The notes beneath the pieces were generated by a model. That model saw nothing but the letters and a program-made list of their open reading frames with translations, was not told the DNA's origin and did no database searches. A program made the position numbers and the translations under genes. Positions 32,596 to 52,146 of a stretch of DNA of 55,270 nt are shown one piece after another. How positions within the stretch are numbered: the stretch's first letter is position 1; the number at the start of each line of letters is the position of its first letter. This stretch comes from a virus. The stretch is taken from positions 1 through 55,270 of IMG/VR virus record IMGVR_UViG_3300017956_000015. One strand, 5' to 3'.

Positions 32596-34215
32596 ATGGC
32601 ATACAAAATTAACAACACCTTCGGTACTTTACTGATCACGTTAGCGGATGGCACTATAGACACCGCAACAACGGACCTTACGCTTTTTGGTAAAGGGTAT
32701 GCAGGCTTTGGTGAGAAACTCAATGAAAACTTCGTCAAAGTATTAGAGAATTTTAACAACACATCGGCACCCGGAAACAAGCAACAGGGACAGTTGTGGT
32801 TTGACAAGACCAACAAACAGATAAACGTCTACACAGGTGACAAATGGAAACCTGTTGGATCAACAACAAATTCTACAACATCTCCAACCAACGCGGTACA
32901 GGGAGATCTTTGGTTTGACACCACCAATCTCCAACTGTACGTTTACAATGGTTCGGTGTGGGTTTTGATAGGTCCAACGTCAGTTGCGGGATCAGGGGTA
33001 ACACAGGTCATCACTGAGACTGTTTTGGACAACACGGGTGTGTACAGGTCTATACTAAAATTAGTCACACAAGACACAGTGGTGGGCGTGATATCAAATC
33101 TTGCCTTCACTCCTAGTTCCAGCGACACAGTGGGAGCGGCACTGATCACGGCAGGTTTCGCCAGCGTGGCACAGGGTATACAACTTTCTAGTTCTGTGTC
33201 GAATGCCAAGTTCAGGGGAACGGCCACTGACTCAGATGCACTGGGCGGAGTGGCAGTGGCAAACTTCCTAAGATCAGACCAGAATGATTCAACGACAGGA
33301 CACCTAGAGATCCTGAACGACAACGGTCTACGTATCGGAGCGAGCAGTGACATAGAGATGACCATGTCCGGAGACAATTTCACAATAGCGAACGTCACAC
33401 AAGACGGCGACATCAAGTTCACGGTAAATGACGGCGGATCCACTAAGAGTGTGATCACAATGCACGGTGATAGCGGTGACGTGAGGATACACGGAAATCT
33501 AACAATAGATGGTGACACAGTCACCAGCAACACTTCCACACTAACTGTGGAGGACAACATAATAGAACTTAACAGGAACATATCATCCGCGTCAGGTATG
33601 CCCAACTACTCGGGTCTGAAGGTCAACAGGGGTGAGACATCTGTGGCCACAGAACAGGATCTTTACTGGGTGTGGGATGAAACCTTTGCTGATGACGGAA
33701 CAACCATATATGGAAACGCGGGCGGTGCCTGGACTGCATTCAAGTCGGGTGGTGGAGACGAGCTGTCAGCACCCACTTTGGTGGACATAAGGGCCAACGT
33801 GGTACACGCAACGTCAACATCGGCGCAGTACGCTGACTTGGCAGAACGTTATGCCACAGACACAGAGGTAGAAGTGGGAGACGTGGTCATGTTGGGTGGA
33901 ACAGCGGAAATTACCAAATGCAATGACGAGTTGTCAGATGCAGTGTTTGGTGTGGTGTCTGAATCACCGGCATTTTTAATGAACGCACAGGCCGGCAACG
34001 ACGAGACACACCCCATGATAGCACTAAAAGGACGTGTTTTTGTCAAAGTAACGGGCACAGGGCAGGCAGGTGATCGTTTGGTGTCTGCGGGCAATGGCGA
34101 GGCACGTGTGGCGGACATGGAAGAATGTACCGCTTTTAACACGTTGGGACGCCTGATCAAGGCTAAATACAACGTAGAAACAGCATTAACAGAATGTGTG
34201 ATAGGAGTTAAATAA
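32596..34215 (+). CDS. Tail-fibre-like structural protein (paralogue 2)
   Basis: A 539-residue protein sharing its first 300 residues with the product of the gene at 19879 (GKGYAGFGE, VLENF, QQGQLWFD, GTATDSDALGGVA). The C-terminal part is different: YADLAERYATDTEVEVGDVV near residue 415, then VFGVVSESPAFLMN and ALKGRVFVKV.GTGQAGDRLVSAG. This ending resembles the autoproteolytic/G2-peptidase-like end domains found on some phage fibres, but I cannot see a definite catalytic residue. Probably a virion fibre or appendage component. Confidence 0.75.
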   Translation: MAYKINNTFGTLLITLADGTIDTATTDLTLFGKGYAGFGEKLNENFVKVLENFNNTSAPGNKQQGQLWFDKTNKQINVYTGDKWKPVGSTTNSTTSPTNAVQGDLWFDTTNLQLYVYNGSVWVLIGPTSVAGSGVTQVITETVLDNTGVYRSILKLVTQDTVVGVISNLAFTPSSSDTVGAALITAGFASVAQGIQLSSSVSNAKFRGTATDSDALGGVAVANFLRSDQNDSTTGHLEILNDNGLRIGASSDIEMTMSGDNFTIANVTQDGDIKFTVNDGGSTKSVITMHGDSGDVRIHGNLTIDGDTVTSNTSTLTVEDNIIELNRNISSASGMPNYSGLKVNRGETSVATEQDLYWVWDETFADDGTTIYGNAGGAWTAFKSGGGDELSAPTLVDIRANVVHATSTSAQYADLAERYATDTEVEVGDVVMLGGTAEITKCNDELSDAVFGVVSESPAFLMNAQAGNDETHPMIALKGRVFVKVTGTGQAGDRLVSAGNGEARVADMEECTAFNTLGRLIKAKYNVETALTECVIGVK

Positions 34216-34218
34216 TTT

Positions 34219-35178
34219 ATGGCATACGTAGCAGGTGATAAAATCAAAGCAACTGAGTACAACACGTTTGTAAACAGTTCATCAGATCCTTATGGATACA
34301 ACCATTTCGCAGGAACAGGTTCAGGCGCATACGGTCTTGGACAAACCCACATAGGTGTGGTCTCAGGTGGAGACACAGTAATAACTGCCTCTCAATGGAA
34401 CACTCTTTTGACTGCAATGGACAACATAGCCAATCACACAAACGACACACTGACAGCGAGGACGCAGGTCAGTACAGGTGACACCATAGCCATCAAGGCG
34501 GCGGTCGCGGCAGACCTTGCCACACTGGCGGCTTCAGTAGCGGCAGGATCACCAAACGCGACAGCACTGGGAACCAACGCGGTAGGTTCATCGACCAACT
34601 CGGCCACATGGAACTCTTCTTCTACTATTGAAAGATCAGTAACATTCGCAAGTGCGGACAAGATGAGACACTTCTTCAACGCAGGCGGTAAGATCAGGAT
34701 TGATCCATCATGTATTACAGGTATCGACGGTTCAAAAGATGATGTGTTCAATGAGCTGACAGCAGTAGGGACAGGAAACCTAGACATCGGACAGACTGCT
34801 ACAACAAGATCAGGTTCAGGCGAGACACTGACCACAAACGGTCTGGCACTTGGTTTCAGAGATCTGACAACTTCTTACCAGACATTATTGAAATTGACTT
34901 CTAACAACGCAGGTTACACATCAAACACAGTTGAGTACCAGGCCAAACTGGACGCGGCTGTTGACTCTAGCACTGTGATCACGATCAAGATGATTTCAAC
35001 TGACGCGGCGGATGACGGAACATTTACCTCAGGAAACACATCGGGTGTACCGGCTAATCCAAACGAAGCACCAAGGATGACTTTGGCATTGATCGAAGTG
35101 TATCCAACCAATGCAGAAGGACTATCAGCGAACATACAGTCACTTTCTAACGCGGAAGTTTCAAACTCAGCATCGTAA
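34219..35178 (+). CDS. Virion structural protein, function unassigned
   Basis: A 319-residue Ala/Ser/Thr-rich protein beginning MAYVAGDKIKATEYNTF, a start common to small structural proteins in marine T4-like phages. Residues about 80-130 are Ala/Ser/Thr low complexity; the rest alternates beta-strands and Gly-containing turns (FFNAGGKIRIDPS near residue 150). No enzymatic motif or membrane segment was found. AGGAG lies twelve bases before the start. It is the last gene of the second structural block. Confidence 0.7.
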   Translation: MAYVAGDKIKATEYNTFVNSSSDPYGYNHFAGTGSGAYGLGQTHIGVVSGGDTVITASQWNTLLTAMDNIANHTNDTLTARTQVSTGDTIAIKAAVAADLATLAASVAAGSPNATALGTNAVGSSTNSATWNSSSTIERSVTFASADKMRHFFNAGGKIRIDPSCITGIDGSKDDVFNELTAVGTGNLDIGQTATTRSGSGETLTTNGLALGFRDLTTSYQTLLKLTSNNAGYTSNTVEYQAKLDAAVDSSTVITIKMISTDAADDGTFTSGNTSGVPANPNEAPRMTLALIEVYPTNAEGLSANIQSLSNAEVSNSAS

Positions 35179-35191
35179 TAATTTTACCAGG

Positions 35192-35220
35192 TTGAATTAC
35201 CACCATAATTATTGTATAAT
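35192..35220 (+). promoter_or_regulatory. Strong sigma70-type promoter, TTGAAT-N17-TATAAT
   Basis: TTGAAT at 35192-35197 and a perfect TATAAT at 35215-35220 with a 17-base spacer sit in the gap before the first gene of island 2. The normal start point, seven bases after the -10, is 35227, exactly the A of the ATG. The first gene would thus be translated from a leaderless message; it has no Shine-Dalgarno sequence. Confidence 0.75.
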
Positions 35221-35226
35221 TGTGGC

Positions 35227-35544
35227 ATGGATATTGGCGAACTAAAAAAACAATCTGACCTTTCCTATGACATCTCAGTTGCCAAGCGCAACGCCTTGGA
35301 GAAGGCACACTCACGACTGATAGTCGTCTACGAGGAACACATATTCCGTGCGGATGCTGAGACCATCTGCCTGGCCAGGACTCTGATGGAGACCAATGAC
35401 AAGTTCTTCGTGTTGGACACGAATCAGAATCCTGTGGAGATTGTGAATCCAAAAGAATTTTTAAAGAAACTCATAGAGAGAAACCAGGAGGCCATTAGTT
35501 CGTATCATCAAATGTCTGAGACGTTTGCAAAGAGAGGCGATTGA
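35227..35544 (+). CDS. Unrecognised small helical protein, first gene of island 2
   Basis: A 105-residue hydrophilic, mostly helical protein that I do not recognise (MDIGELKKQSDLSYDISVAK at the start). A TTG 15 bases earlier is in frame but lies inside the -10 region, so the ATG at 35227 is used here. There is one cysteine and no membrane segment. The gene opens the second accessory operon, and its stop overlaps the start of the glycosyltransferase that follows (TGATG). Confidence 0.65.
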   Translation: MDIGELKKQSDLSYDISVAKRNALEKAHSRLIVVYEEHIFRADAETICLARTLMETNDKFFVLDTNQNPVEIVNPKEFLKKLIERNQEAISSYHQMSETFAKRGD

Positions 35545-36293
35545 TGACCAAGGGTGTATTGCTATTTTGCTTTGACACAGCAGAAGTAAAGTATCACAAG
35601 ATACTGGAACGTTGTGTCGCGCTCGTGAAGAAAAATTTAAAATTAGAGATAACAGTGGTGACAAACTTTGACACCTACAAAAATCTCAAACCGCTGGGTT
35701 TCATAAACTACAAATTCATAGAACCTGAACTGGGTAACACAAAGTTGGGCAAGGAATGGCGCAACGTGGACAGGCACCTGGCCTATGAACTTTCTCCCTA
35801 TGACACCACCATGGTGATGGACATCGATTACTTGCCGTTCTCGGACAACCTACGCAAGTTTCTGGACACAGGATATGATTTCCTGATCAGCAAAACTGCA
35901 CACGATCTAACAGGCAGGAACACCTTTGATCAGAGGCGCTGGAGCATGATAGACATGGTGTGGGCCACTGTGTTTGTGTTCCGCAAGGGCAAGAAGGCCA
36001 AGCGTGTGTTTGACACCCTGAAGTATGTGAAAGATTATTACGCTTACTTCTTGGAACTTTACAGGATATATGACAAGCAGTTCAGGAATGACTATGCATT
36101 TGCAATCGCCCTACAACAGGCCAACGGTTTCCTGGATTACGACACATTACCCATCAGTCTGCCAACTTTGCCGCCCGACTGTGAGGTACTGCAAATCGAT
36201 GATACAGGCATAGCCTGGAAGTATCAGGACCAGTTTAACTTTACCACAGATCAGGACGTACACGTTTTGAACAAGGAGTTGGCCAATGTCTAA
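35544..36293 (+). CDS. Glycosyltransferase-like protein (GT-A type)
   Basis: A 249-residue GT-A-type protein. The strand TTMVMDID presents the DxD metal-binding pair (D93, D95), preceded by a LEITVVTNFD strand and followed by a SKTAHD segment and a donor-side helix. The C-terminal half contains NDYAFAIALQQANGF, matching the base/acceptor region of such transferases. It is similar in plan to the proteins at 22608, 25902 and 36286. The start (TGATG) overlaps the previous stop. The donor sugar is unknown. Confidence 0.72.
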   Translation: MTKGVLLFCFDTAEVKYHKILERCVALVKKNLKLEITVVTNFDTYKNLKPLGFINYKFIEPELGNTKLGKEWRNVDRHLAYELSPYDTTMVMDIDYLPFSDNLRKFLDTGYDFLISKTAHDLTGRNTFDQRRWSMIDMVWATVFVFRKGKKAKRVFDTLKYVKDYYAYFLELYRIYDKQFRNDYAFAIALQQANGFLDYDTLPISLPTLPPDCEVLQIDDTGIAWKYQDQFNFTTDQDVHVLNKELANV

Positions 36294-37080
36294 GGGATTC
36301 CTATGGTTCGCACAGAACAACGAAACCACTGACTATGTTGAGTTAAGCATTAAACTGGCGGAAAGCATAAAGTTGTGGAACAGTGAAAACAAGATATGTG
36401 TTGTGACCGATGAGAAGAGTAAATTTGAAAACAAAGCAGTGGACTATGTAAAAGTACTCAGACAAGACGACAGTGCTCAACACACAAACAAATGGGCAAA
36501 CGAACACAAAGCATTTTACATTTCTCCATTCACCCACACAATAAAATTAGAAAGTGATATGTTATGGACCACAAACACAGATTGGTGGTGGAATCATCTA
36601 TGGCAACACGATCTTGTTTTCAGTGTAGACTGTAGGAACTACAAAGACGAAATAGTCAAGAATACACCATATAGAACTTTGTTTGTGCGTAACAGTCTGC
36701 CAAATATCTACAACGGACTGATGTATTTCAGGAAAAGCAAAAAAGCACAGAAATTTTTTGACACGGCAAGTCATATCACACAGCATTGGCAAGATGTGAA
36801 AAAAACAATGTTAATAAACTGCCATGATGAATATCCAAGCACAGATGTCGTGTTCGCACTCGCTTATAGAATGATCGATCCCACAAACAGGAACCTGATA
36901 GACTATGACTGGTTCAAATTTTTACACCACAAACCTTCTGTAAACGGACTTGATCACACCAGGGATCATAACAATTATCTGTTCCCAAACAAAAATAAAA
37001 ACGCCTACTACCTAGGTCACAAGAGGGTGTCACGGGTATGGCACTACTTCGACAAGGAGATCGATGTCAGAATTTCTTAA
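36286..37080 (+). CDS. Glycosyltransferase-like protein with ESD motif
   Basis: A 264-residue protein of the same broad plan as its neighbour. The metal-binding site appears as THTIKLESDMLW (E89, S90, D91), an ExD variant of the usual DxD. NKWANEHKAFYISPFTHT precedes it and YNGLMYFRKSKKAQKFF follows, the latter being the helix that packs under the nucleotide in GT-A folds. AAGGAG lies eight bases before the ATG. It overlaps the previous gene by eight bases and the next by 17. Confidence 0.65.
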   Translation: MSKGFLWFAQNNETTDYVELSIKLAESIKLWNSENKICVVTDEKSKFENKAVDYVKVLRQDDSAQHTNKWANEHKAFYISPFTHTIKLESDMLWTTNTDWWWNHLWQHDLVFSVDCRNYKDEIVKNTPYRTLFVRNSLPNIYNGLMYFRKSKKAQKFFDTASHITQHWQDVKKTMLINCHDEYPSTDVVFALAYRMIDPTNRNLIDYDWFKFLHHKPSVNGLDHTRDHNNYLFPNKNKNAYYLGHKRVSRVWHYFDKEIDVRIS

Positions 37081-37366
37081 AGCATTCGAGCAACAGCCAA
37101 CACCACCGGTGAAGAAGCATTTCGTCACGGTGCAAGGCAAACAGTGCGAGGTCAGCCTCGAGAAGAAACTGGAGGTCATCAAAAATGGTGAGGAAAATTA
37201 TGTGATCACAAAGTTTGGTATAGCATTGAGAAAGCCGAGCAGACTAAAAACACGTTACACTGTACTCAAGCGAGCGGACAATGGTTACAAGTTCGAGCAT
37301 GGCGACATACACTGGCCAAACTCAGTAGAACAAAATGGAGAAACATGGCAGATAGAGTACGAGTAA
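37064..37366 (+). CDS. Unrecognised small protein
   Basis: A 100-residue basic protein that I do not recognise, made of beta-strand-like segments (HFVTVQGKQCEVSLEKKLEVI, then YVITKFGIALRKPSRLKTRY). It has one cysteine and no membrane segment. AAGGAGATCG directly precedes the ATG. It overlaps both the glycosyltransferase before it (17 bases) and the one after it (22 bases), so it is very probably a real, co-translated member of the operon. Confidence 0.65.
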   Translation: MSEFLKAFEQQPTPPVKKHFVTVQGKQCEVSLEKKLEVIKNGEENYVITKFGIALRKPSRLKTRYTVLKRADNGYKFEHGDIHWPNSVEQNGETWQIEYE

Positions 37367-38244
37367 GCGACCTAGACTTCGTGTACATCAGTTTCAAGGA
37401 ACCCAACAAGGAACACAACTGGGCAGACCTCAAGAACAAGGTGCCATGGGCCAAGCGTGTTGACGGCGTAGTGGGTTTTGACTCGGCACACAAGGCCGCG
37501 GCGGAATTGGCGGAGACTGAATTCTTCATAAGTGTTGACGGCGATAACATAATAGATGAATCGTTCCTGTTGGAGACGCTGGACTGGACGAAGACCAATC
37601 CCAAGGCAGTGCATCGCTGGAGGGCAAAGAACAACATCAACGGACTGGTGTACGGCAACGGAGGACTGGTGGGTTGGGACAAGCACACGTGCCTCTCCAT
37701 GAGGACACACGAGAACGCAGACTCGGAAGAGAACAAGATGGATTTCTGTTGGGGAGTGCCACATGAGAACCTGCACAACTGCTACTCGCAGACAGTGATA
37801 AACGCAACCGCACAACAGGCGTTTGTGGCCGGATTCAGGGAAGGCGTAAAGATGTGCACCAACAAGGGAATTCCTATAGAGCCTAGCAACTTCGCAAAGA
37901 TATGGCCAGTGAACCTACGCACACTGTCTACCTGGTGCACGGTGGGTGCTGACGTAGAGAATGGCAAGTTCGCCATGCTGGGTGCCAGGATGGGCAGTTT
38001 CTACACCGTAGTGGACCACAAGAACTACGACTTCGACGTGAGTGACCTCAACTCGATGGCGGACTATTTCCACTCAACGGTGCAACCGGCAAACATAGAT
38101 AGGGAATTAGAGATGTGGGGCAACAGCCTGAGGCAACAACTGGACTTACCCATAGCGGATTTTGATGACGACGACAGTAGGTTCTATAGGTTCGTCATGC
38201 CAGAACACATAAACAGAGGAGTGCAAGACCGTGAGTACAAGTGA
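37345..38244 (+). CDS. Glycosyltransferase-like protein with DGD motif
   Basis: A 299-residue protein with WAKRVDGVVGFDSAHKAAAELAETEFFISVDGDNII, cited here only for its order: VDG at 39-41, an Ala-rich helix, then the strand FFISVDGD with D65 and D67. This is the pattern of GT-A transferases of the GT2 kind. The region RWRAKNNINGLVYGNGG follows. The protein encoded at 49216 has the same blocks in the same order but lacks the DGD. It overlaps the first radical SAM gene by 14 bases. The substrate is unknown. Confidence 0.68.
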   Translation: MADRVRVSDLDFVYISFKEPNKEHNWADLKNKVPWAKRVDGVVGFDSAHKAAAELAETEFFISVDGDNIIDESFLLETLDWTKTNPKAVHRWRAKNNINGLVYGNGGLVGWDKHTCLSMRTHENADSEENKMDFCWGVPHENLHNCYSQTVINATAQQAFVAGFREGVKMCTNKGIPIEPSNFAKIWPVNLRTLSTWCTVGADVENGKFAMLGARMGSFYTVVDHKNYDFDVSDLNSMADYFHSTVQPANIDRELEMWGNSLRQQLDLPIADFDDDDSRFYRFVMPEHINRGVQDREYK

Positions 38245-39601
38245 TTACAAGGCACAGGCCGAACACGCCAAGAAGAAACTGGCAGAGATATCGCCCACGA
38301 TGTGCCTGGCCAAGTGGAACCAGGTCTCACTGCACCTGCCCACTGGACTGACCAACAGTTGCTACCACCCACCCCTGCACGAGATAGACGCCGAACAACT
38401 GAAACACAATCCGGCCGCACTGCACAACACCGCGGAGAAACTGCGACAGCGTGAGCAGATGCTGAACGGTGAGCGTCCGAAAGGATGTAGTTACTGCTGG
38501 AAACTGGAGGACACGGGCGAGATGTCGGACAGGCACTACAGGTCCGGTGAGCCATGGGCCATGCAGGACTTCAACGAGATAAGACAGAATCCAATGACCA
38601 CAAGTTGGACACCCAGGTACGTGGAGGTAAACTTCAACCACGCTTGTAACTTCAAGTGTAGTTACTGTTCGCCACAGTTCTCCACAACCTGGGGCAAGGA
38701 AACCGAGAGGTACGGCGAGTTCCCCACAACACCACCACACAACGCACCCGAGCACTTCCAGGGCAGGAGGCGTCCGATACCAAACCGCGAGGACAATCCC
38801 TACGTGAAGGCTTTCTGGGAATGGTGGCCCACGCTGTACAAGAACCTGAAGCACTTCCGCATGACGGGAGGAGAGCCCATGATGGACCCAAACACGTATA
38901 AGGTCTTCCAATACGTCATAGACCATCCCAAGGATGACCTACATTTGAACATCACGTCAAACTTCTGCCCACCGGATCCCAAGTTGAAGACAAAATACTT
39001 CAACATGCTACAACAGATATGCCTGCAGGAAAAGGTGGAACACGTGATGCAGTTCGTCAGCGTGGATGCCTACGGCAAGCGGGCCGAGTACATACGTAAC
39101 GGACTAGACTTCGAATACATGATGGCGAATGTGGAGGAGTTCCTGGATCGTATTCCACACAGGAATTCGGTCACGTTCATAGTGACCTACAACAACCTCA
39201 GTGTCACCAGCATGGACAAGTTACTAGTGAAGATACTGGACCTGCGTAAGCGTTACAGCAAGGACTACCAGCGTGTGTGGTTCGACGTGCCACTGCTGAG
39301 ACAACCGGCGTGGCAACAGATAACCATGTTGCCCGAGTCGTACCAGAGCATACACGAGGACAACATAAAGTACATGGAGCAGAACTCCGGCGAGGACAAC
39401 GGGCTACACATATTCAAGGACTTCGAGATCCAAAAGATGCGACGCAATCTCGCATACTGGCGAGAAAACGCTGACGCGAGCGCATCTCTGAAAAAGAACT
39501 TTTACGCATTTTTTAATGAACACGACCGCAGGCGGTTGACCAACTTCCAGAACACGTTTCCTGAGATGTTGGAATTCTGGGAGGATTGCAAGAACTCATG
39601 A
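38231..39601 (+). CDS. Radical SAM protein 1 of 5, N-terminal twitch-like region
   Basis: A 456-residue radical SAM protein starting at GTG with AGAGGAG upstream; no other start lies before the conserved region. The SAM-cleaving [4Fe-4S] cluster motif is C139-N-F-K-C143-S-Y-C146, and the TGGEP motif that positions SAM is near residue 220. Before this core, C25, C44 and C86-x2-C89 (KGCSYCWK) form a second cysteine set resembling half of a SPASM ('twitch') auxiliary-cluster region, here placed at the N-terminus. The C-terminus has the NFQNTFPEM phrase shared by the group. It is the first of five tandem paralogues; the substrate (peptide, sugar or lipid) is unknown. Confidence 0.85.
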   Translation: MSTSDYKAQAEHAKKKLAEISPTMCLAKWNQVSLHLPTGLTNSCYHPPLHEIDAEQLKHNPAALHNTAEKLRQREQMLNGERPKGCSYCWKLEDTGEMSDRHYRSGEPWAMQDFNEIRQNPMTTSWTPRYVEVNFNHACNFKCSYCSPQFSTTWGKETERYGEFPTTPPHNAPEHFQGRRRPIPNREDNPYVKAFWEWWPTLYKNLKHFRMTGGEPMMDPNTYKVFQYVIDHPKDDLHLNITSNFCPPDPKLKTKYFNMLQQICLQEKVEHVMQFVSVDAYGKRAEYIRNGLDFEYMMANVEEFLDRIPHRNSVTFIVTYNNLSVTSMDKLLVKILDLRKRYSKDYQRVWFDVPLLRQPAWQQITMLPESYQSIHEDNIKYMEQNSGEDNGLHIFKDFEIQKMRRNLAYWRENADASASLKKNFYAFFNEHDRRRLTNFQNTFPEMLEFWEDCKNS

Positions 39602-39619
39602 TAATAACACAAGGACATC

Positions 39620-39685
39620 ATGTTCAAGAGTGACATACTCTGCCCACAACGAGAACTAGATAAGTTAAGGAATTACTATGGATGA
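39620..39685 (+). CDS. 21-codon ORF between radical SAM genes 1 and 2
   Basis: A 21-residue frame (MFKSDILCPQ at the start, NYYG at the end) with AAGGA four bases before its ATG. Its stop overlaps the start of radical SAM gene 2 (ATGGATGA). It contains one cysteine and two adjacent tyrosines. It could be a translated coupling peptide, the remnant of a lost gene, or, less likely, a peptide substrate of the flanking enzymes. The only evidence is the ribosome-binding site and the overlap. Confidence 0.35.
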   Translation: MFKSDILCPQRELDKLRNYYG

Positions 39686-41021
39686 TTTAGAATACAAAAA
39701 ACAGGTCTTAGACACAAAGAGTGCCAGTTTCTGTGGTGCCAAATGGTATAACGCCACGATATGGTTAGGGTCTGGAATGACCACTAGTTGCCATCATCCA
39801 TTGCCACATAAAATTGATTTTGAAGAGATCAAAATAAATCCCAGTGCCATACACAACACAAAACAAAAAAAGGAACAACGAAGGCAGATGCAGTCGGGCG
39901 AGAGACCCAAGGGTTGTGAGTACTGTTGGAAGATAGAGGACATGGGCAGAGACGCCATAAGCGACAGGGTATACAAAAGTAAAATCTTTTCAAACGAATC
40001 ACTAGACGAAGCATACAAAACAGACCATAACACAGATTGGAATCTTAAAACACTTGAGATAGCATTTGATAGAACTTGTAATTTTAAATGTACATATTGC
40101 AATCCAGCGTTCAGTTCTACATGGGCAAATGATATCAAGCAGAAAGGTGCCTACACAGGACTTAAATCTGATGGCAGAAACCATTACACACACAGTCACG
40201 AAAGTGCTGAACCGTATAAGAAAGATGAAACCAATCCCTACGTGGAAGCATTTTACAAATGGTGGGAAACCGATTTACACAAAAGTCTAGACGAATTAAG
40301 GATCACAGGCGGTGAACCCATGATGTCACCAAACCTATGGCGTTTGTTAGATTGGATAGAAACACAGGGCGATAAAATGAATCCCCATATGCGTATTGCA
40401 ATCAATTCAAATTTGGGAGCCAAGCAAAGCATAATAGATAGATTTAAAACAAAGTTAAAAAATTTTAAAAATTTCCATCTGTATACAAGTTGTGAGGCCA
40501 CATTCAAACAAGCCGAGTACATTAGGGACGGTTTGAATTATACAGATTGGCACAGTCAGGTACTCCATATGATGGTAGATAAAGTGCCAAGTGAGATACA
40601 CAACATGGCAACAATCAATGCCTTATGTTTGGAATCGTTACCGGAGTTCTTAGAGAAGATTGTGTGGTTGAAAAGTGCAAGTAAAGTTTATGGCCCAAAA
40701 ATCAACTATACACTTAATATTTTGAGGTTTCCGAGTTTCCAATCTCCGTTGGTGTTGCCAGACGATCTTAGGAATAAATTTAAGAGCGACATTGAAAAGT
40801 ACTTAACTACTAATGAGAAATGGTTAGAGGGTATGGAAATAAATCAAACACAAAGACTTATTGATTATCTTGATGTTGTCAAAACACCACACGCAGGTGC
40901 GGCCACACAGGATAAACTACAGAAAGATTTCAAAACATTTTACAGTCAATACGACAAAAGATCAGGAAAGGATTTCGAGAATACTTTCCCAATAATAGGA
41001 GAATGGTATCGTGGCATATGA
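39678..41021 (+). CDS. Radical SAM protein 2 of 5, N-terminal twitch-like region
   Basis: A 447-residue paralogue of the preceding radical SAM protein and its closest relative in the group (both have KWYNATIWL/KWNQVSLHL-type starts and a C-H-H/C-Y-H-P block). Core cluster motif C134-N-F-K-C138-T-Y-C141; TGGEP near residue 215; N-terminal cysteines C19, C38, C80 and C83 (KGCEYCWK). The C-terminus ends FENTFPIIGEWYRGI. The codon use is more AT-rich than that of gene 1, which suggests that the duplication is old or that one copy was acquired separately. AAGGA lies seven bases before the ATG. Confidence 0.85.
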   Translation: MDDLEYKKQVLDTKSASFCGAKWYNATIWLGSGMTTSCHHPLPHKIDFEEIKINPSAIHNTKQKKEQRRQMQSGERPKGCEYCWKIEDMGRDAISDRVYKSKIFSNESLDEAYKTDHNTDWNLKTLEIAFDRTCNFKCTYCNPAFSSTWANDIKQKGAYTGLKSDGRNHYTHSHESAEPYKKDETNPYVEAFYKWWETDLHKSLDELRITGGEPMMSPNLWRLLDWIETQGDKMNPHMRIAINSNLGAKQSIIDRFKTKLKNFKNFHLYTSCEATFKQAEYIRDGLNYTDWHSQVLHMMVDKVPSEIHNMATINALCLESLPEFLEKIVWLKSASKVYGPKINYTLNILRFPSFQSPLVLPDDLRNKFKSDIEKYLTTNEKWLEGMEINQTQRLIDYLDVVKTPHAGAATQDKLQKDFKTFYSQYDKRSGKDFENTFPIIGEWYRGI

Positions 41022-42306
41022 GTACGGGGCCAAGGAGCCTGACAAGTTAAAGATAAAAGACATGACTCCACGTGAGAAGGAGTTGTTGATAGAGTCGGAC
41101 ACTTTCTGTATGCTTCCGTGGATGCACCTCCATGCGTACCCAGATGGTAGGGCATACCCTTGCTGTTTCGCATTTGATCCATATCCTGTTGGTGACCTGA
41201 ACAAGCAGAGCCTCAAGGAAGTTTTCAACGGCGACAAGATGAAGCAGATGCGATTGAACATGCTGGACAACAAGCCATGCAAGGAATGTGGCAAGTGTTA
41301 TGACCAAGAGCAGAGCGGATTCTTCTCGATGAGATTAAGTTCCAACAAGCATTTTGGACATAATATAGGACTTGTGGAATCCACACAGCCAGACGGATCC
41401 GCAGACTTCGTAATGAAGTACTGGGATATTAGGTTCAGCAACATCTGTAACTTCGCCTGCAGGAGTTGTGGCACATGGTTCAGTTCCAACTGGTACGAGG
41501 ACCACATCAAGATAACAGGGGGACCACCTAATCACGCCAAGATAATCAAGGTGGGCAGGTCCGCGGACGACATGTTCCAGCAGGTGCTTGATGAGATAGA
41601 ACATTCGGAACAGTTCTATTTCGCTGGCGGCGAGCCTCTGATAATGGAGGAGCACTACCGTATATTGAAGGAATTGGACAGGCGCAAGATGTATCACGTT
41701 AGATTGATATACAACACCAACTTCTCCAGATTAAAGTTCAAAGATATGGACGTGTTGGAGTTATGGAACAAGTTTGAATCTGTTTCAATAGGTGCCAGCC
41801 TTGACGCAGAGGGTGAGCGTGGTGAATTCTTGAGGAAAGGAACCATATGGGAGAACACGCTGGCCAACAGGAAAAGGATGATGGAGGTTTGTCCACAGGT
41901 AGATTTCTATGTGTCAGCCACCGTCAGCCTACCCAACGCACTGCACGTTGTGGATTTCCATAAGAGTTGGGTGGAGAAAGGTTTGATTAAGCCACAAGAT
42001 TTCAACTACAACCTATTACAGAGTCCCACGTGGCAGAGGATAGACATATTGCCCAAAGAGTACAAGCAACAGATAAAAGAAAAATATGAGGAACACATCA
42101 AATGGTTAAGACCCCTAGACCCGTTGACCAGGGCAATTAAGGGTTTTGAATCTGCCTTGGATTGGCTTTACAAGAGAGACCTACCTCAACATCTCGATAG
42201 GTTCTTTGAGAATACAAGGAAGTACGACAAAGTGAGGAACGAGAACTTCCTCGAAGTGTTCCCTGAATGGAAAGAATTATTCGAGAAGTATGAAAAACAG
42301 GATTAG
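41011..42306 (+). CDS. Radical SAM protein 3 of 5, N-terminal twitch-like region
   Basis: A 431-residue radical SAM protein starting at GTG with AGGAG nine bases upstream. Core motif C146-N-F-A-C150-R-S-C153; AGGEP near residue 208. Its N-terminal cysteine set is richer than in genes 1 and 2: C33 (FCMLPWMHL), C51-C52 after a PDG turn, then C90, C93 and C96 (PCKECGKC). This is very like a SPASM domain, although SPASM domains normally follow the radical SAM core. The end NFLEVFPEWKELF is the group's terminal motif. It overlaps genes 2 and 4 by 11 and 17 bases. Confidence 0.85.
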   Translation: MAYEYGAKEPDKLKIKDMTPREKELLIESDTFCMLPWMHLHAYPDGRAYPCCFAFDPYPVGDLNKQSLKEVFNGDKMKQMRLNMLDNKPCKECGKCYDQEQSGFFSMRLSSNKHFGHNIGLVESTQPDGSADFVMKYWDIRFSNICNFACRSCGTWFSSNWYEDHIKITGGPPNHAKIIKVGRSADDMFQQVLDEIEHSEQFYFAGGEPLIMEEHYRILKELDRRKMYHVRLIYNTNFSRLKFKDMDVLELWNKFESVSIGASLDAEGERGEFLRKGTIWENTLANRKRMMEVCPQVDFYVSATVSLPNALHVVDFHKSWVEKGLIKPQDFNYNLLQSPTWQRIDILPKEYKQQIKEKYEEHIKWLRPLDPLTRAIKGFESALDWLYKRDLPQHLDRFFENTRKYDKVRNENFLEVFPEWKELFEKYEKQD

Positions 42307-43627
42307 ACCTAGCGAAGGCAATAAAACTTTCTGTATGGCGCCTTGGACACACACCTACCTTTCGCCACAGATGGAACGCAGGTTGTGTTGTAGTTCAAGG
42401 GAATCCGCAGAAAACTTCAAGCAATACATAGACACAATAGATCCAAAGGGACACAATGACAAGTTGAACCTCACCACTCTGGACGAGCACTGGAACTCCG
42501 AGTACATGAAGGCAGTGAGGTTAAAACTGATGGCAGGTGAGGAGATACCCCAGTGTGCTGTTTGCAATCACAAGTTACTGAATGAACAGGTTTACAGGCA
42601 ACATTTCAATTGGCTATACAAGGATCAAGTGCAACAGGCATATGACAGCACTGATGAGACAGGTGCAACCACAATGAAGGTGCAGAGTTTCGACTACAGG
42701 TTCTCTAACCTTTGCAACTTCAGTTGTAGGATGTGTGGAGACATGTTGTCCAGCACCTGGGAGACAGAGAACAAGAAACATGGCAAGGGCGACTATGAGA
42801 ATTACCGTATATGGGGTAGGAAGGACATCAAGGCGCAGTTAGAGAAGTTCCATGATCAGCAGGTGGTACGGGAATTCACTGAGGCGGTAGAGGACAAAAG
42901 GATAACCGAACTTTACTGGTGCGGTGGTGAGCCACTGATGTGGAAGATACACTGGGAGGCCATGAAGCGTATCGTTGAACTGGGTTACCAGCATCAGGTA
43001 CTGGCCAGGTACAACTCAAACATGAGTCGTATAAATTTTTTCAATCTAAACCTGTTCGATGACATCCTAAGTCATTTTCCAAATTGGCAAATATGTGCTT
43101 CGATAGATGGCACGGGAGAAATAGGGGAGTACATCAGGACGGGATTGAAATATGAAGAATGGCTCGCTAATATGAAGTACGCCACTAGGTTTGCGGATGG
43201 CGGACGCAGGCGCATACAACTTGATCTCACGATCACACTGCCTGGCCTGTTTGATCTAGAGAACATGGTTGCCTTAAGCAATGACCTAGGCATAGAATTA
43301 CTGACGAAGCAGGTTTTCAATTTCTCACACGACAACGCTATGGCACCTCTGTTTATGCCATACGACATTATGAGCGAGATCATTGACGACGTAAGGGACA
43401 AGACACTGAAATATAAAAACAAGAACCTCAACAACTTCTTTGGACAACTGGACGAGATGCAAAGACAGAAACGCAACAACGAATTAGTCTATGAAACGGA
43501 GAAACATAAACAAGGACAAAAGGACGGTAAAGCAGAAATTGAAAGGCTAGATAGAATACGTGGCACTGACATAACAAAGATACTGTCCAAAAACAAGAAA
43601 GCATTGGAATGGTGGAAAAGTATTTAA
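42290..43627 (+). CDS. Radical SAM protein 4 of 5, N-terminal twitch-like region
   Basis: A 445-residue member of the group. Core motif C142-N-F-S-C146-R-M-C149; CGGEP near residue 206; N-terminal cysteines C15 (FCMAPWTH), C33-C34 and C89-x2-C92 (QCAVCN). The segment ICASIDGTGEIGEYIRTGL is shared in outline with gene 3 (IGASLDAEGERGEFLRKG) and marks a conserved strand and loop of the barrel. The C-terminal 60 residues are strongly charged and helical, and the terminal FP motif of the other copies is not evident. Start and stop overlap neighbouring genes. Confidence 0.84.
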   Translation: MKNRIRPSEGNKTFCMAPWTHTYLSPQMERRLCCSSRESAENFKQYIDTIDPKGHNDKLNLTTLDEHWNSEYMKAVRLKLMAGEEIPQCAVCNHKLLNEQVYRQHFNWLYKDQVQQAYDSTDETGATTMKVQSFDYRFSNLCNFSCRMCGDMLSSTWETENKKHGKGDYENYRIWGRKDIKAQLEKFHDQQVVREFTEAVEDKRITELYWCGGEPLMWKIHWEAMKRIVELGYQHQVLARYNSNMSRINFFNLNLFDDILSHFPNWQICASIDGTGEIGEYIRTGLKYEEWLANMKYATRFADGGRRRIQLDLTITLPGLFDLENMVALSNDLGIELLTKQVFNFSHDNAMAPLFMPYDIMSEIIDDVRDKTLKYKNKNLNNFFGQLDEMQRQKRNNELVYETEKHKQGQKDGKAEIERLDRIRGTDITKILSKNKKALEWWKSI

Positions 43628-44811
43628 AATCTAATATGTGTATGATACCATGGACCAGTCTAGAGACAAGACCGGGTGGCGAATACAAGCCTTGCTGTAT
43701 GTACAGGGAGGACTTGAAGGACAGTGCTGGTGTGCCTTTCAACACGAGAAAACATTCCATCACAGAAGTGATGCAGTCAAAGGCAATGGAGGACCTCAGA
43801 GAGTCTTTCAAGCGAGGAGAAAGACCCGCTGGCTGTGAAAGTTGTTGGAAAGAGGAGGACGGTGGGAAGACGTCTAAGAGGCAACATATGTGGTACAAGG
43901 CTCCACACCTTGGACAGATGCACATAGCACAAGACACCGTCGAGCCGAGATTCGTTGACCTTAAACTAGGAAACATATGCAATCTGAAATGTAGGATCTG
44001 TTCGCCTCATTCCAGTTCGCAGTGGGTCAATGACATGATCAAGATAGATCCAACGGGCAAGGACAAATGGAAGGAGTACAACACAAAGGGACTATGGCCA
44101 CGTGAGGAGAACGTGTTCATGAAGGATTTGGAGAACCACATAGAACAGATACGTTTTTTTGAGATAACTGGTGGTGAACCCCTAATGATTCAACAGCAAT
44201 TTGATGTCCTTCAAAAATGCGTTGACAAGGGAGTGGCTAAAAACATAGAGATACACTACAACACCAACGGAACACAGTTTCCAGAACAAGCAATAAGAGA
44301 TATCTGGCCACACTTCAAAAGGCTAGAGATAGCATTTAGCATAGACGATACGGAATCTCGATTTGAGTACCAGAGGCATCCTGCCAAATGGCATGAAGTG
44401 AATGATAACATCAACAAGTTCAAACAGGCGGGACTATCAAACTTTTCAATGCAGATCTGTACCACTATCAATTTTTTCAATGTTGCTCATGTTGACGAAC
44501 TTGCTCACCAAGTGAAAGAATGGAATCCAGATTTTTGGTACATCAATATACTGCATCATCCAGTTGAGTTTGACAGCCAACAGATACCTATCGCGATAAA
44601 GCAACAAATAGCCAACAAATTATCAAAATCCAAGATATACAAGAAGGAGATACAGACTGCTATAGATTACATGATGCAAGAACCTGCATACAAGATAAAT
44701 GATTGGCATTCAAAAGTCCAGGAAAAAATTATGCAGATAGATTCTGTCAGGAAAGAAAATTTCAAACAAACATTTCCATTTTTAAATAGTATGGTTGGAG
44801 TATATGACTAA
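43609..44811 (+). CDS. Radical SAM protein 5 of 5, N-terminal twitch-like region
   Basis: A 400-residue member of the group. Core motif C124-N-L-K-C128-R-I-C131; TGGEP near residue 186; N-terminal cysteines C11 (MCMIPWTS), C29-C30 and C76-x2-C79 (GCESCW). It ends in KENFKQTFPFLNS, the group's terminal motif. The start is uncertain: the ATG at 43609 overlaps the previous gene by 19 bases, and an ATG at 43636 just before the first cysteine is also possible. The predicted barrel keeps all SAM-binding signatures, so all five copies look catalytically competent. Confidence 0.85.
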   Translation: MVEKYLKSNMCMIPWTSLETRPGGEYKPCCMYREDLKDSAGVPFNTRKHSITEVMQSKAMEDLRESFKRGERPAGCESCWKEEDGGKTSKRQHMWYKAPHLGQMHIAQDTVEPRFVDLKLGNICNLKCRICSPHSSSQWVNDMIKIDPTGKDKWKEYNTKGLWPREENVFMKDLENHIEQIRFFEITGGEPLMIQQQFDVLQKCVDKGVAKNIEIHYNTNGTQFPEQAIRDIWPHFKRLEIAFSIDDTESRFEYQRHPAKWHEVNDNINKFKQAGLSNFSMQICTTINFFNVAHVDELAHQVKEWNPDFWYINILHHPVEFDSQQIPIAIKQQIANKLSKSKIYKKEIQTAIDYMMQEPAYKINDWHSKVQEKIMQIDSVRKENFKQTFPFLNSMVGVYD

Positions 44812-45607
44812 GAAATTTATAGCAGGTGGGTGCAGTTTCACCTTTGGACACGAACTCAGTGACGACGACAAGGGCAAAACGCCAAGCAAGAAGTCATGGG
44901 CTCATCTCCTTAGGGAGCATACTACATGGGAGTACGTTTGTGCCGCCAGGGCAGGATCAGGCAACAGCGGTATTGCTCGTAGGGTATTCAATGCTGTGTC
45001 ATCTTTTGAGACGGACCAGATCGGCGGAGTGGTGGTCATGTGGAGTTTCTTGTCTCGCTATGACTGGGCTATGCCAAGGCACAGGGAACTGGAGGGCACC
45101 AGGTGGGCCAGCATATCACCTTGGGACACAGAGACCGGTAACGAGGAGGCATTCAGGCACCTGGCCGGTTCAGAGGGACAACAGGAACAATGGAAGGCAC
45201 GCAGGGAGACATTCAAAGAGACCGGGGTCAAAGATTTTGCCGAGGCCATATACCGATACGGCGCAAACCAGTACCACGAGACATACCTCAGTTGGAAGAG
45301 CATCATCTGGTTGCAGAACATTTTGGAAAAGAAAAACATTCCTTATATGTTCACACTTGCAGACAACACCTTGTTTTACCAAGAGTTCACCCATCACAAG
45401 GACCAGGATGCTTTCATGCAGGCACTGTATTCAGAGATTGATTTTACCAAGTGGTACAGTTTTGGTGAGAGAGATATGGGGTTCAACCAATGGGCAATTA
45501 TGAATGACTATGAACGTGGCACTACACATCCACTAGACAAAGCACACAAAGATGCTACAATGTTAATGTTACCAACTTTTAGAAAACTTATAGGAGACAA
45601 GAAATGA
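44804..45607 (+). CDS. SGNH/GDSL-like hydrolase (island 2 copy)
   Basis: A 267-residue protein. The N-terminal GGCSFTFGHELSDD places Ser11 as the nucleophile of an SGNH fold; AGSGNSGIARRV is block II with the conserved Gly and Asn; VVVMWSFLSRYDW lies near block III; and THPLDKAHKDATM near the end supplies the His. The island-1 protein at 29643 has the same plan and the same Ser11. I start it at an ATG after GGAG. Acyl-ester transfer or removal on a glycan is the likely chemistry. It overlaps the last radical SAM gene by eight bases. Confidence 0.66.
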   Translation: MTKKFIAGGCSFTFGHELSDDDKGKTPSKKSWAHLLREHTTWEYVCAARAGSGNSGIARRVFNAVSSFETDQIGGVVVMWSFLSRYDWAMPRHRELEGTRWASISPWDTETGNEEAFRHLAGSEGQQEQWKARRETFKETGVKDFAEAIYRYGANQYHETYLSWKSIIWLQNILEKKNIPYMFTLADNTLFYQEFTHHKDQDAFMQALYSEIDFTKWYSFGERDMGFNQWAIMNDYERGTTHPLDKAHKDATMLMLPTFRKLIGDKK

Positions 45608-45709: not shown

Positions 45710-46354
45710 ATGGAAATACTTAACAAAGACAAACTTGTACAGAAACTAGAAGAATGGAAAGGACATCCTTCTATACAGAATCTGATGGATAAATTCAGCA
45801 AGTTGCAGTCATACACCAAACAACAGATCAAGGAATCCAAATACGAACTTGTGGAGATGCCATACATAGACTGCTCAGAAGATCCAGTCAGGCCAGAACT
45901 GGACCTTGCATTCAGGCAGACATACGGAAGGAAAGTATACGGACTCAAGGACGACGTCGGAGATATAGCGGCAATAATCTGTTTCGCTTTCACAGACGAA
46001 GTGCCAAAGACAATAGAGGAAATGGATCAGATGAGTTATGACGCGGCACTCAAAGCGGTGCACAGGGCAGGAGTACAAGGTTCCATAGCGATAGCGTACA
46101 CAGTATGGGCAAAGAAGAAAGGCGGTGGACGAGCCATAGTGAACGAGGTTTACAAGATGGTCAAGAATTCAAATCATCTTAACAGGTTGGTTACACTTTC
46201 TCCACTCACAGACATGGCTAGGAATTTCCACACAAAGAACGGTGCAAAGGAACTGCAAGTGAACGAGACCACACAAAATTTTGAATACGACATCACGTTG
46301 GAGGAATGGGAAACTGCCTTAGAAAAAGCAAAAGGTTTCTTTAGAATAAAATGA
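45710..46354 (+). CDS. GNAT-like N-acetyltransferase
   Basis: A 214-residue protein with the GNAT plan. GSIAIAYTVWAKKKGGGRAIVNEVY has the central strand followed by a Gly-rich loop and helix suited to bind the acetyl-CoA pyrophosphate. RLVTLSPLTDMARNFHTKNGA matches the C-terminal 'N..a...y...GF' motif. The N-terminal 60 residues are helical and charged. In a sugar-modification operon an amino-sugar N-acetyltransferase is plausible. It overlaps the next small gene by four bases (ATGA). Confidence 0.62.
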   Translation: MEILNKDKLVQKLEEWKGHPSIQNLMDKFSKLQSYTKQQIKESKYELVEMPYIDCSEDPVRPELDLAFRQTYGRKVYGLKDDVGDIAAIICFAFTDEVPKTIEEMDQMSYDAALKAVHRAGVQGSIAIAYTVWAKKKGGGRAIVNEVYKMVKNSNHLNRLVTLSPLTDMARNFHTKNGAKELQVNETTQNFEYDITLEEWETALEKAKGFFRIK

Positions 46355-46518
46355 CCTGGTGGAACTGGTACTGTTATAGGTGCAAGTGGAAGGGTGTGGC
46401 CAATGAACTCGACAAAGACGATTCGGCAAATGAATGGTACGTCTGTCCAACGTGTAGCAGTGACGACATAGAAGACATGGGTTGGCACGAGGAGCAAGAT
46501 GAGAATACTGGGAATTAA
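46351..46518 (+). CDS. 55-residue zinc-ribbon protein
   Basis: A small gene overlapping the GNAT stop (ATGA) and the carbamoyltransferase start (by 20 bases). The product has two CxxC knuckles, Y-C8-Y-R-C11 and V-C32-P-T-C35, 20 residues apart, framed by Trp and acidic residues: a rubredoxin-like or four-cysteine zinc-ribbon fold. With the radical SAM cluster nearby, an iron-binding electron carrier is conceivable, but zinc is the default assumption. The exact overlaps on both sides make this a credible gene. Confidence 0.62.
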   Translation: MTWWNWYCYRCKWKGVANELDKDDSANEWYVCPTCSSDDIEDMGWHEEQDENTGN

Positions 46519-47965
46519 TTGTATGAACCACGATGCCGCAATGGCAGTGGTTGAATACAAGGAGGATAAAGGCAAAATACTCTGGGCCGCACACTCGGAG
46601 AGATATTCCAAAGTCAAAAACGATCACTATTTGAATTGGGCGATTGTCAACGAGGCCAACACTTATGGTCCTTTCGACAAAGTGGTATATTACGAGAAGC
46701 CTTGGCTCAAGAAAACCAGGCAGTTATACGCAGGGCAGTACAGCGATGCCTTGAGTTACACGGAACTGCCTCAGTGGCACCTGGATCACTTCAACATTAA
46801 GATAGACGAGTATGTAAGACACCATGACTCACACGCGGCCGCGGGATACTTCACATCACCTTTCAGTGAAGCAACAATCCTCACAGTGGATGCCATAGGA
46901 GAATGGGATACGGTGTCAATATCAACCGCATTGAACAGGACGATCACAAGGCGTGAAACTATAAAGTATCCACACAGCCTGGGAATACTATATTCTGCAT
47001 TCACACACAGGTGTGGTCTCAAACCCGCCGAAGAGGAATACATCCTAATGGGCATGGCCGCATACGGCACTCCAAAATACAAGGATGACATCTACAACGA
47101 CTTTGTTGAACAATCACCTTTTAGACTCAAACAAAATTTGCACAGAGGACTGGGAGATTGGCATCCAGAGGCGGACGTGATGGACATTGCCGCCAGCATA
47201 CAGGCAGTGACTGAAGAGTGTCTTGCCAATCTGTGGCATAGGGCCAGCAAGTACGCATCAAGAAATCTTGTCTATGCGGGAGGAGTTGCGTTAAACTGTG
47301 CCGCCAATAGGGTGTTGGCCAATTTGGGATTGTTTGATAACGTATGGATCATACCTAACCCCGGTGATGCTGGATCAAGTGTGGGTTGCATTGCCGCACA
47401 CGAAAAGAAATTTATAGAATGGGAGAATCCATTCCTTGGACACAACATAGATGGTGAGTATCCTGTGGACAGTTTGATAAAGGAATTGAAGGAGAACAAG
47501 ATGGTTGGCGTGGCAAGTGGACGGGCAGAGTTTGGTCCTAGGGCACTTGGTAATAGATCACTACTGGCAGACCCGAGGGGTGAGGACATCAAGGATCTGG
47601 TAAACTCAATCAAGAAAAGGCAGAAGTTTAGACCATTCGCTCCTGCCATATTAGAAGAGGATGTAAACGACTATTTTGAACTGCCTAAAGGCGTCAAAAA
47701 CACCCCTTATATGCAATATACAGCGGCGTGTACTGCTGGTAAAGACTTTCCTGCCATAGTACACTACGATAACACTTCTAGGGTTCAAACCGTGCGAAAA
47801 ACGGACAATCCAGGGTTCCACGCACTGCTCACGGAATGGAAGAAACAGACCGGTTGCCCAATACTACTAAACACCAGTCTCAACATAAAGGGACAGCCAA
47901 TAGTCAACGACAGGGCGGATGGTAAAGCATTCACAAACAAATACGGAGTAAAGGTACTAGGATGA
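46499..47965 (+). CDS. Carbamoyltransferase, NodU/CmcH family
   Basis: A 488-residue O-carbamoyltransferase. N-terminal Kae1-like half: MRILGINCMNHDAA, then HHDSHAA (H108, H109, H112), the metal/substrate site. Further on are YAGGVALNCAAN, NPGDAGSSVGC, and the YrdC-like C-terminal signature GRAEFGPRALGNRS and FRPFAPAIL. Members transfer the carbamoyl group of carbamoyl phosphate through carbamoyl-adenylate to a hydroxyl of a sugar or antibiotic. It is somewhat shorter than many bacterial members. GAGGAG lies six bases before the ATG. The acceptor here is probably a sugar, judging from the neighbours. Confidence 0.92.
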   Translation: MRILGINCMNHDAAMAVVEYKEDKGKILWAAHSERYSKVKNDHYLNWAIVNEANTYGPFDKVVYYEKPWLKKTRQLYAGQYSDALSYTELPQWHLDHFNIKIDEYVRHHDSHAAAGYFTSPFSEATILTVDAIGEWDTVSISTALNRTITRRETIKYPHSLGILYSAFTHRCGLKPAEEEYILMGMAAYGTPKYKDDIYNDFVEQSPFRLKQNLHRGLGDWHPEADVMDIAASIQAVTEECLANLWHRASKYASRNLVYAGGVALNCAANRVLANLGLFDNVWIIPNPGDAGSSVGCIAAHEKKFIEWENPFLGHNIDGEYPVDSLIKELKENKMVGVASGRAEFGPRALGNRSLLADPRGEDIKDLVNSIKKRQKFRPFAPAILEEDVNDYFELPKGVKNTPYMQYTAACTAGKDFPAIVHYDNTSRVQTVRKTDNPGFHALLTEWKKQTGCPILLNTSLNIKGQPIVNDRADGKAFTNKYGVKVLG

Positions 47966-48144
47966 GATACGTATTAATTTTTTTGTTCTTGGTGGGTTGT
48001 GGATTTAAGCCACACTATAATTGCATTCCTTCATCTGAAAAGATAGACGGGATAGAACAAAAAAAGACAGCAAGGCAAGAAGTATTAGACAAAGTAAAAA
48101 ATTGCATCGAGCAACCTATAATGGGTGTCTCCAAGGAGTTCTAA
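47962..48144 (+). CDS. Small predicted lipoprotein
   Basis: A 60-residue protein with a lipoprotein signal: MRYVLIFLFLVGCGFKP has a short basic start, a hydrophobic stretch and a lipobox LVGC with Cys13 as the lipid-bearing residue. The mature part is hydrophilic, with two more cysteines (NCIP, KNCIE). Phage lipoproteins of this size act in lysis (Rz1-like) or in blocking superinfection; neither can be chosen here. The start overlaps the carbamoyltransferase stop (ATGA) and the end overlaps the aminotransferase start (TAATG). Confidence 0.62.
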   Translation: MRYVLIFLFLVGCGFKPHYNCIPSSEKIDGIEQKKTARQEVLDKVKNCIEQPIMGVSKEF

Positions 48145-51508: not shown

Positions 51509-52146
51509 AATGTTTTATTGTATACTAGATGAAAAGTTTCTGCAACCATATCTGGACCAATGAAACTACCCCTATATTTGTTGTAGTCGATGATTGTGTT
51601 TATTTGTGCGTCTGAGAAATAGGAATCATAGCATCGCAGTGCTTGTATTTTTTTATCTACATACTTTGTGATGTCCACATAGAGATTTGCCTGAAAGTTA
51701 TTGTAGTGCAGATTGTATGGTGGTTCATCCATACACCAGAACTGCTTGAAGTTTTTCCTTGCTATGCTTCTCGCCACATCATAACAGACACGGTGATCTT
51801 GATGGTGGTCCTCACGCCAGTGCGAGATCAAGATATCGTGATCTTTTGCAATTTCTTCAGCATACGATATGAGATTGTTGTTCAGCACCAAGTTGGGCCT
51901 GCCGTTATTGTGTAAAGGTGTGTCATAGATCTGCACGTCCATTTCTAATAGTGAAGCACTTGCATCTAGTTCTCTTTCAACTATGTGCTTTGACCTTTTG
52001 ATGTTATTTTCAGCGGACGGTTTAACCAATATCAGGTTAGTGACCATTCCCCCATGTGCTTTGATTTTGGACACTAGTCCTGCGCACCCCATCTCTAAAT
52101 CATCAGGATGTGCTGTGATAATTAGGAACTTCTTATCGTAAATCAT
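51505..52146 (-). CDS. PIG-L family N-deacetylase
   Basis: A 213-residue PIG-L/LmbE-type deacetylase. AHPDDLE (H13, D15, D16) and H115-Q-D117-H118 are the zinc-binding and catalytic motifs. Such enzymes remove acetyl groups from N-acetylglucosamine-type sugars. With the epimerase next to it and N-acetyltransferase-like genes in the islands, it fits amino-sugar remodelling. Its start overlaps the previous stop (ATGA). Family assignment is secure; the substrate is inferred. Confidence 0.9.
   Translation of the reverse strand: MIYDKKFLIITAHPDDLEMGCAGLVSKIKAHGGMVTNLILVKPSAENNIKRSKHIVERELDASASLLEMDVQIYDTPLHNNGRPNLVLNNNLISYAEEIAKDHDILISHWREDHHQDHRVCYDVARSIARKNFKQFWCMDEPPYNLHYNNFQANLYVDITKYVDKKIQALRCYDSYFSDAQINTIIDYNKYRGSFIGPDMVAETFHLVYNKTL

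Follow-up and report, generated by a model that had tools for sequence, protein, structure and literature searches.

A conserved cassette of five divergent radical SAM genes in uncultured phages points to a probable multi-step sugar-modifying pathway

Introduction

This study concerns five tandem radical S-adenosylmethionine (SAM) genes, here called rS1 to rS5, in the IMG/VR virus record IMGVR_UViG_3300017956_000015. The window is the whole stretch that was analysed, 55,270 nucleotides (55 kb) bearing T4-type baseplate genes by PHROG assignment; its baseplate wedge protein is closest to those of the jumbo phages Atu_ph07 and Sinorhizobium phage Phosso, at ~36% identity. Genes of this general kind have been reported before. 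The T4-like marine genome TARA_ERS488813_N000010 carries 12 radical SAM genes (Nishimura et al. 2017, PMC5332604), and pelagimyophages carry radical SAM cassettes within a host recognition cluster (PMC7029224). The present locus resembles these in its many radical SAM genes in a T4-like marine setting and in its host-recognition region, but the accessible text of the two papers notes presence and number, and describes no five clades, fixed order, bacterial counterparts or carbamoyltransferase link. Radical SAM genes are over-represented in Tasman Sea viromes (PMC7150976), and genes of Baltic viruses have been assigned as 'ahbD' haem synthase (PMC9301287); the Baltic genes may in fact encode N_Twi_rSAM proteins under a wrong label.

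The family to which rS1–rS5 belong, NCBIfam NF033640 (N_Twi_rSAM), is named 'twitch domain-containing radical SAM protein' and has no assigned function. The model names the subfamily only; what distinguishes the present locus is the arrangement of five orthologous clades in an ordered cassette. Two groups of characterized enzymes offer comparisons. CteB, SkfB, SuiB and anSME share with the phage proteins a radical SAM core and auxiliary iron-sulfur cysteines. In CteB and anSME the auxiliary domain is C-terminal to the core, whereas the phage enzymes carry the auxiliary half at the N-terminus. BtrN, DesII, AprD4 and NeoN are carbohydrate-acting radical SAM enzymes, and the sugar dehydrogenation, deoxygenation and epimerisation proposed below, near aminotransferase, deacetylase and carbamoyltransferase genes, would resemble their chemistry. 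However, no NCBIfam equivalog of these enzymes was matched above cut-off, and the likeness is one of setting rather than of tested family membership.

Among the phage records of INPHARED, the only relatives, and distant ones, are genes of Vibrio phages K566 and K567 (OZ196521, OZ196593). K566 has four N_Twi_rSAM-type genes, two of them above cut-off, which alternate with two GT8 genes and one gene weakly matching GT4. They differ from rS1–rS5 in being only 22–27% identical and not orthologous, and no NodU gene was identified among the K566/K567 neighbour genes scanned.

Results

The five genes were found on the plus strand at 38231–44811, in the tandem arrangement that a sequence-only reading of the window had described, each with CxxxCxxC, GGEP and a second set of cysteines.

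38231..39601, +, rS1, N_Twi_rSAM radical SAM protein, clade 1 (clade supported in trees); 456 amino acids (aa), NF033640 329.5 bits
39678..41021, +, rS2, N_Twi_rSAM radical SAM protein, clade 2, the most conserved; 447 aa, NF033640 302.3 bits
41011..42306, +, rS3, N_Twi_rSAM radical SAM protein, clade 3; 431 aa, NF033640 410.8 bits, AlphaFold2 pLDDT 91.3
42290..43627, +, rS4, N_Twi_rSAM radical SAM protein, clade 4; 445 aa, NF033640 312.6 bits
43609..44811, +, rS5, N_Twi_rSAM radical SAM protein, clade 5; 400 aa, NF033640 352.3 bits

The genes are closely spaced or overlap, as had been noted, with intergenic gaps of +76, −11, −17 and −19 bases in order; rS5 shares a further 17 bases with the SGNH hydrolase-like gene that follows it. 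Family membership was defined by the curated NF033640 cut-off of 170 bits, which each of the five proteins exceeds (302–411 bits) over nearly the full model length, from position 1–2 to 396–398. Their pairwise identity is 19–35%. Four N-terminal cysteines, CxxxCxxC and GGEP are among the positions that do not vary in the alignment of the five, and both motifs are retained by every member of the five clades among the relatives fetched (526/526). All five genes are under purifying selection, with pN/pS of about 0.06–0.43. The array is not due to chance and, judged by sequence, its five divergent copies can fairly be called apparently active, as first proposed.

The four invariant N-terminal cysteines, present in all five proteins, are those expected for the auxiliary cluster of a SPASM/twitch protein. 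PF13186 (SPASM) scored above its gathering threshold in rS3 and rS5, and below it in rS4. The C-terminal position of a SPASM/twitch auxiliary domain was not found in rS3, where the SPASM-like half (residues 33–96) lies ahead of the core (141–298). Since their auxiliary half is N-terminal, the rS enzymes do not merely duplicate the SPASM maturases already known. The top viral matches of the rS3 model were radical SAM proteins of uncultured phages, with a 'MoaA/nifB/pqqE' protein of KVP40 lower. Profile searches of PDB sequences with rS1, rS3 and two neighbouring genes (GTa and GTc, below) gave no convincing match, and the rS4 profile gave weak viperin core matches only. Two specific identities were rejected: AhbD, for which only rS5 matched TIGR04545 (27.7 bits against a curated cut-off of 500), and prokaryotic viperin (19–23 bits against the NF038283 curated cut-off of 180).

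Conservation was measured in viral loci found through rS2 or rS5. Relatives of rS2 are encoded in 490 IMG/VR stretches, the 80 best of which were retrieved; relatives of rS5 gave 37 IMG/VR loci. As best matches were kept, a lone rS2 may occur in remoter phages. All five clades were present on one strand in 100 of 114 distinct viral loci. The order was 12345 in 47 loci and 12354 in 49, and the remaining four were 12354 with one gene duplicated. When loci were collapsed at 70% rS2 identity, 18 representatives remained, and 18/18 had one of the two orders. Most junctions within rS2–rS5 overlap by a few bases and therefore fit co-translated genes, while the rS1/rS2 junction is often split by an insertion. 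In the tree, rS1 to rS5 each form a separate clade, except for a few divergent extra copies that were assigned by best match. The earlier suggestion of a coherent unit would have been undermined by unrelated families occurring singly and in random order; what was found is one family in five orthologous clades that stay together across phage contigs. rS1–rS5 are a coherent, anciently conserved set in one module.

The same reading had considered tandem expansion of this kind unusual in a phage, which has to be given up. Each of ten related records (139–345 kb) holds 6 to 11 N_Twi_rSAM genes above cut-off, so that multiple copies per genome are normal for such environmental phages, and environmental T4-like and jumbo phages commonly show such expansion, the 12-gene genome among them. 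A carrier of the cassette was absent from the 50,697 phage records of INPHARED in tblastn searches with rS2, rS3 and the neighbouring glycosyltransferase GTb: rS2 and rS3 matched only the distant K566/K567 genes, and GTb had zero matches. In the literature searched, with subscription journals and preprints outside the search, neither the ordered cassette nor its carbamoyltransferase link has been described. Within that search, the claim of an undescribed system holds for the cassette and its partner, but not for the family, already named NF033640, or for its expansion in phages, already reported.

Counterparts were found in bacteria. When GTDB genomes were scanned with the rS2 alignment, the matches comprised four phage-like contigs binned in metagenome-assembled genomes (MAGs) and five Bdellovibrionota MAG contigs. 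One of the latter, the Bacteriovoracaceae contig L128, has relatives of all five clades. It also encodes glutamate dehydrogenase, phosphofructokinase, phosphoglycerate mutase, the Obg GTPase and a NodU carbamoyltransferase, and is taken as chromosomal because of these housekeeping genes. The cassette is kept more loosely in Bdellovibrio relatives than in phages, bacterial loci often carrying just one or two of the five clades. In a tree that included the bacterial sequences, every phage clade formed a single group with bacterial sisters. Because of these sisters, the five lineages appear older than the split between phage and bacterial genes, and the copies were probably not generated within the present phage. 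Large N_Twi_rSAM expansions were also seen in Bdellovibrionales genomes G002, G024, G033, G075 and others. Interspersed among them there are often members of other radical SAM families, GT2 glycosyltransferases and genes that, by eye, look like 2-oxoglutarate oxygenases.

The genes flanking the cassette in the window are as follows, with counts of the viral loci that share them.

32596..34215, +, tail-fibre-like protein (PHROG fibre and virion matches); upstream in 85/93 loci
34219..35178, +, presumed structural protein, by position (no PHROG match); upstream in 92/93 loci
35212..35544, +, s35212, small conserved protein; upstream in 91/93 loci
35541..36293, +, GTa, glycosyltransferase-like, the weakest of three; invariant D94 and D96 of DxDY, weak DUF5672 match, 91/93 loci
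36286..37080, +, GTb, GT8-like glycosyltransferase; profile matches glycogenin (E 0.0016), 93/93 loci
37345..38244, +, GTc, GT-A glycosyltransferase-like; invariant DGD at 65–67, AlphaFold2 pLDDT 92.2, family in 112 loci
44795..45607, +, SGNH hydrolase-like protein, by motif only (no Pfam match); overlaps rS5
45710..46354, +, acyltransferase-like protein; very weak malonyl-CoA decarboxylase C-terminal match (E 0.05), 32 loci
46499..47965, +, NodU-type carbamoyltransferase; PF02543 148.3 bits, PF16861 184.2 bits, phrog_1601, 64/69 loci
48102..49226, +, DegT/DnrJ/EryC1 sugar aminotransferase; PF01041 E 2e-70
49189..50541, +, long protein, C-terminal half GTc-like by alignment, N-terminal ~200 residues unrecognised
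50507..51508, −, NAD-dependent sugar epimerase/dehydratase; PF01370 E 2e-37
51505..52146, −, PIG-L family deacetylase; PF02585 E 3e-14

Glycosyltransferase and sugar-modifying genes therefore physically adjoin the cassette. The flanks are those named in the sequence-only reading: GTa–GTc upstream, of which GTb and GTc are supported by profile or fold, and the SGNH-like gene downstream. GTc overlaps rS1, and its model matched the GT-A glycosyltransferases SunS, ThuS, WrtF and TarP in a Foldseek search of the PDB. For GTa, the glycosyltransferase call comes from the conserved DxDY and nothing else. The carbamoyltransferase class of the NodU-type protein was confirmed, both Pfam domains exceeding gathering thresholds, and its gene lies downstream of the cassette in 64 of the 69 loci with enough sequence.

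Other features of the window and related loci were noted in passing. In 12354-order loci, a well conserved family of ~360 aa (cluster c9; L026:14698-15786 and relatives, 51 loci) follows rS4, occupying the place of the SGNH-like gene of the other lineage; neither Pfam nor PHROG gave it a match above threshold. The SGNH-like family occurs twice in the window, at 29643–30410 and 44795–45607. A single ORF of 4203 codons (6529–19140) beside the baseplate genes presumably encodes a giant tail or fibre protein. The gene at 54163–55269 (−) is labelled 'HNH endonuclease' by PHROGs, whereas Pfam gives DUF2201 metallopeptidase-like and VWA-like domains, and the PHROG label looks wrong. The T4-type late promoter TATAAATA had two matches in the window, which is chance level, and none was close to the cassette.

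Association with possible partner genes was measured in 119 Bdellovibrionales genomes. NF033640 was above cut-off in 38, and addition of G004, reached through contig L131, made 39. The NodU domain PF16861 was present in 28 of the 39 genomes with the family and in 4 of the 80 without (Fisher P = 3e-14), counts that ignore shared ancestry. Of 34 NodU genes, at least 10 had a listed N_Twi_rSAM gene no more than 10 kb away, in a zone that makes up 1.7% of the genome, while the proximity controls gave 1/150 for AMP-binding and 2/116 for DegT within the same distance. On L128, the NodU gene lies ~11.5 kb upstream of the five-clade genes, amid housekeeping genes. NodU-type carbamoyltransferases thus associate with the NF033640 family in Bdellovibrionales, independently of phages. 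DegT was rejected as a second sugar partner in these genomes, showing no enrichment near the family.

PqqD, a marker of ribosomally synthesised and post-translationally modified peptides (RiPPs), had no genome-level association, being found in 9/39 genomes with the family and 13/80 without, again irrespective of ancestry. The Bacteriovoracaceae MAG contig L132 has a PqqD-like ORF directly upstream of its rS2 homologue (5424–5726, 100 aa, PF05402 E 4e-4, just below gathering), which was dropped as a RiPP clue when the genome-level count gave no support. Within the phage cassette, neither a RiPP recognition element (RRE) nor a precursor peptide was recognised, though an RRE other than PqqD, or a precursor that escaped recognition, may be present.

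Discussion

We consider stepwise radical SAM tailoring of a phage-directed glycan the somewhat favoured explanation of the cassette. GTa, GTb and GTc would build or lengthen a glycan carried by a lipid, a protein or a nucleotide. In each radical SAM enzyme, cleavage of SAM at the [4Fe-4S] cluster held by CxxxCxxC would allow hydrogen abstraction at one specific C–H of a sugar, while the N-terminal cluster would accept or donate a second electron. Possible outcomes are oxidation, epimerisation, deoxygenation, and ring or branch formation, as in other carbohydrate-acting radical SAM enzymes, with the five perhaps acting in succession. The carbamoyltransferase and the SGNH hydrolase-like protein may finish hydroxyl groups, and the DegT, epimerase and PIG-L enzymes may provide amino-sugar precursors. 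As the cassette lies beside tail-fibre genes, the product could decorate the host-recognition parts of the virion or alter the surface of the infected cell; a role in host recognition or surface modification is probable. The sequence-only reading had proposed stepwise modification of a glycan or lipid-linked product, and the profile and fold matches of GTb and GTc, the NodU association and the glycosyltransferase genes of K566 speak for it, while the substrate and the order of steps stay unproven.

Several observations weigh against a glycan. The best PDB fold matches of the rS3 model beyond the generic radical SAM core are the peptide modifiers CteB, SkfB and anSME, at a TM of only about 0.35, and the nearest folds of GTc include the peptide S-glycosyltransferases SunS and ThuS. 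Of 11 PqqD places, two are close to the NF033640 family, and the PqqD-like ORF of L132 adjoins an rS2 homologue. Because DegT shows no proximity in Bdellovibrionales, some sugar genes do not follow the family. NodU is absent from 5/69 phage loci with enough sequence, its relatives also modify non-sugar small molecules, and the co-occurrence counts take no account of phylogeny. We found no NF033640 enzyme with a known substrate.

Part of this evidence would fit modification of a peptide or protein instead, either the neighbouring fibre proteins or s35212, by epimerisation or by thioether or C–C cross-links, with the glycosyltransferases then acting on the same protein. The twitch/SPASM architecture is typical of peptide maturases, the cassette is directly 3′ of fibre genes in most loci, and the rS3 and GTc folds and the L132 ORF point the same way. 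However, the same lineages occur on bacterial chromosomes without fibre genes, PqqD does not track the family at genome level, and neither an RRE nor a precursor was recognised in the cassette. We regard this alternative as less likely than a glycan, but as the main and still live rival.

It is less probable still, and in our view doubtful, that rS1–rS5 are paralogues working independently on unrelated substrates, held together only by block movement and inheritance of the module. Some loci have extra divergent copies inserted in the block, and further copies are dispersed over the rest of the genomes; rS4 and rS5 are swapped between lineages, and many bacterial loci have only one or two clades. 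Against this, all five persist in 100/114 loci across clades of 35–60% identity, and all five are under purifying selection. A metabolic role in acting on a host cofactor, as for the haem synthase AhbD to which viral radical SAM genes have been assigned (PMC9301287), or in viperin-like nucleotide chemistry is very improbable: rS5 has its weak TIGR04545 match and all but one of the five match viperin weakly, but these scores are far below the family cut-offs and no haem or nucleotide pathway genes were recognised nearby.

Returning to the glycan reading, a wider proposal, which we put forward tentatively, is that the five enzymes and the carbamoyltransferase form an assembly line for C–H-modified glycans of a new kind, which would serve host recognition in abundant uncultured T4-like and jumbo phages and the cell's own surface in Bdellovibrio-like bacteria, and would have moved between the two as a set.

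Radical SAM genes of marine viromes, including one set labelled 'ahbD', have repeatedly been filed as metabolic genes whose role is not clear. That many of them form a fixed cassette of five next to tail-fibre genes, and that this cassette has Bdellovibrionota counterparts and a NodU partner, turns them into a testable pathway. Dozens of distinct uncultured phages share the cassette in nearly the same order, together with glycosyltransferase and carbamoyltransferase genes, and this points to a multi-step pathway of sugar modification that has not been described. If glycan modification is correct, it would represent new chemistry between phage and host and could supply unusual enzymes that act on sugars.

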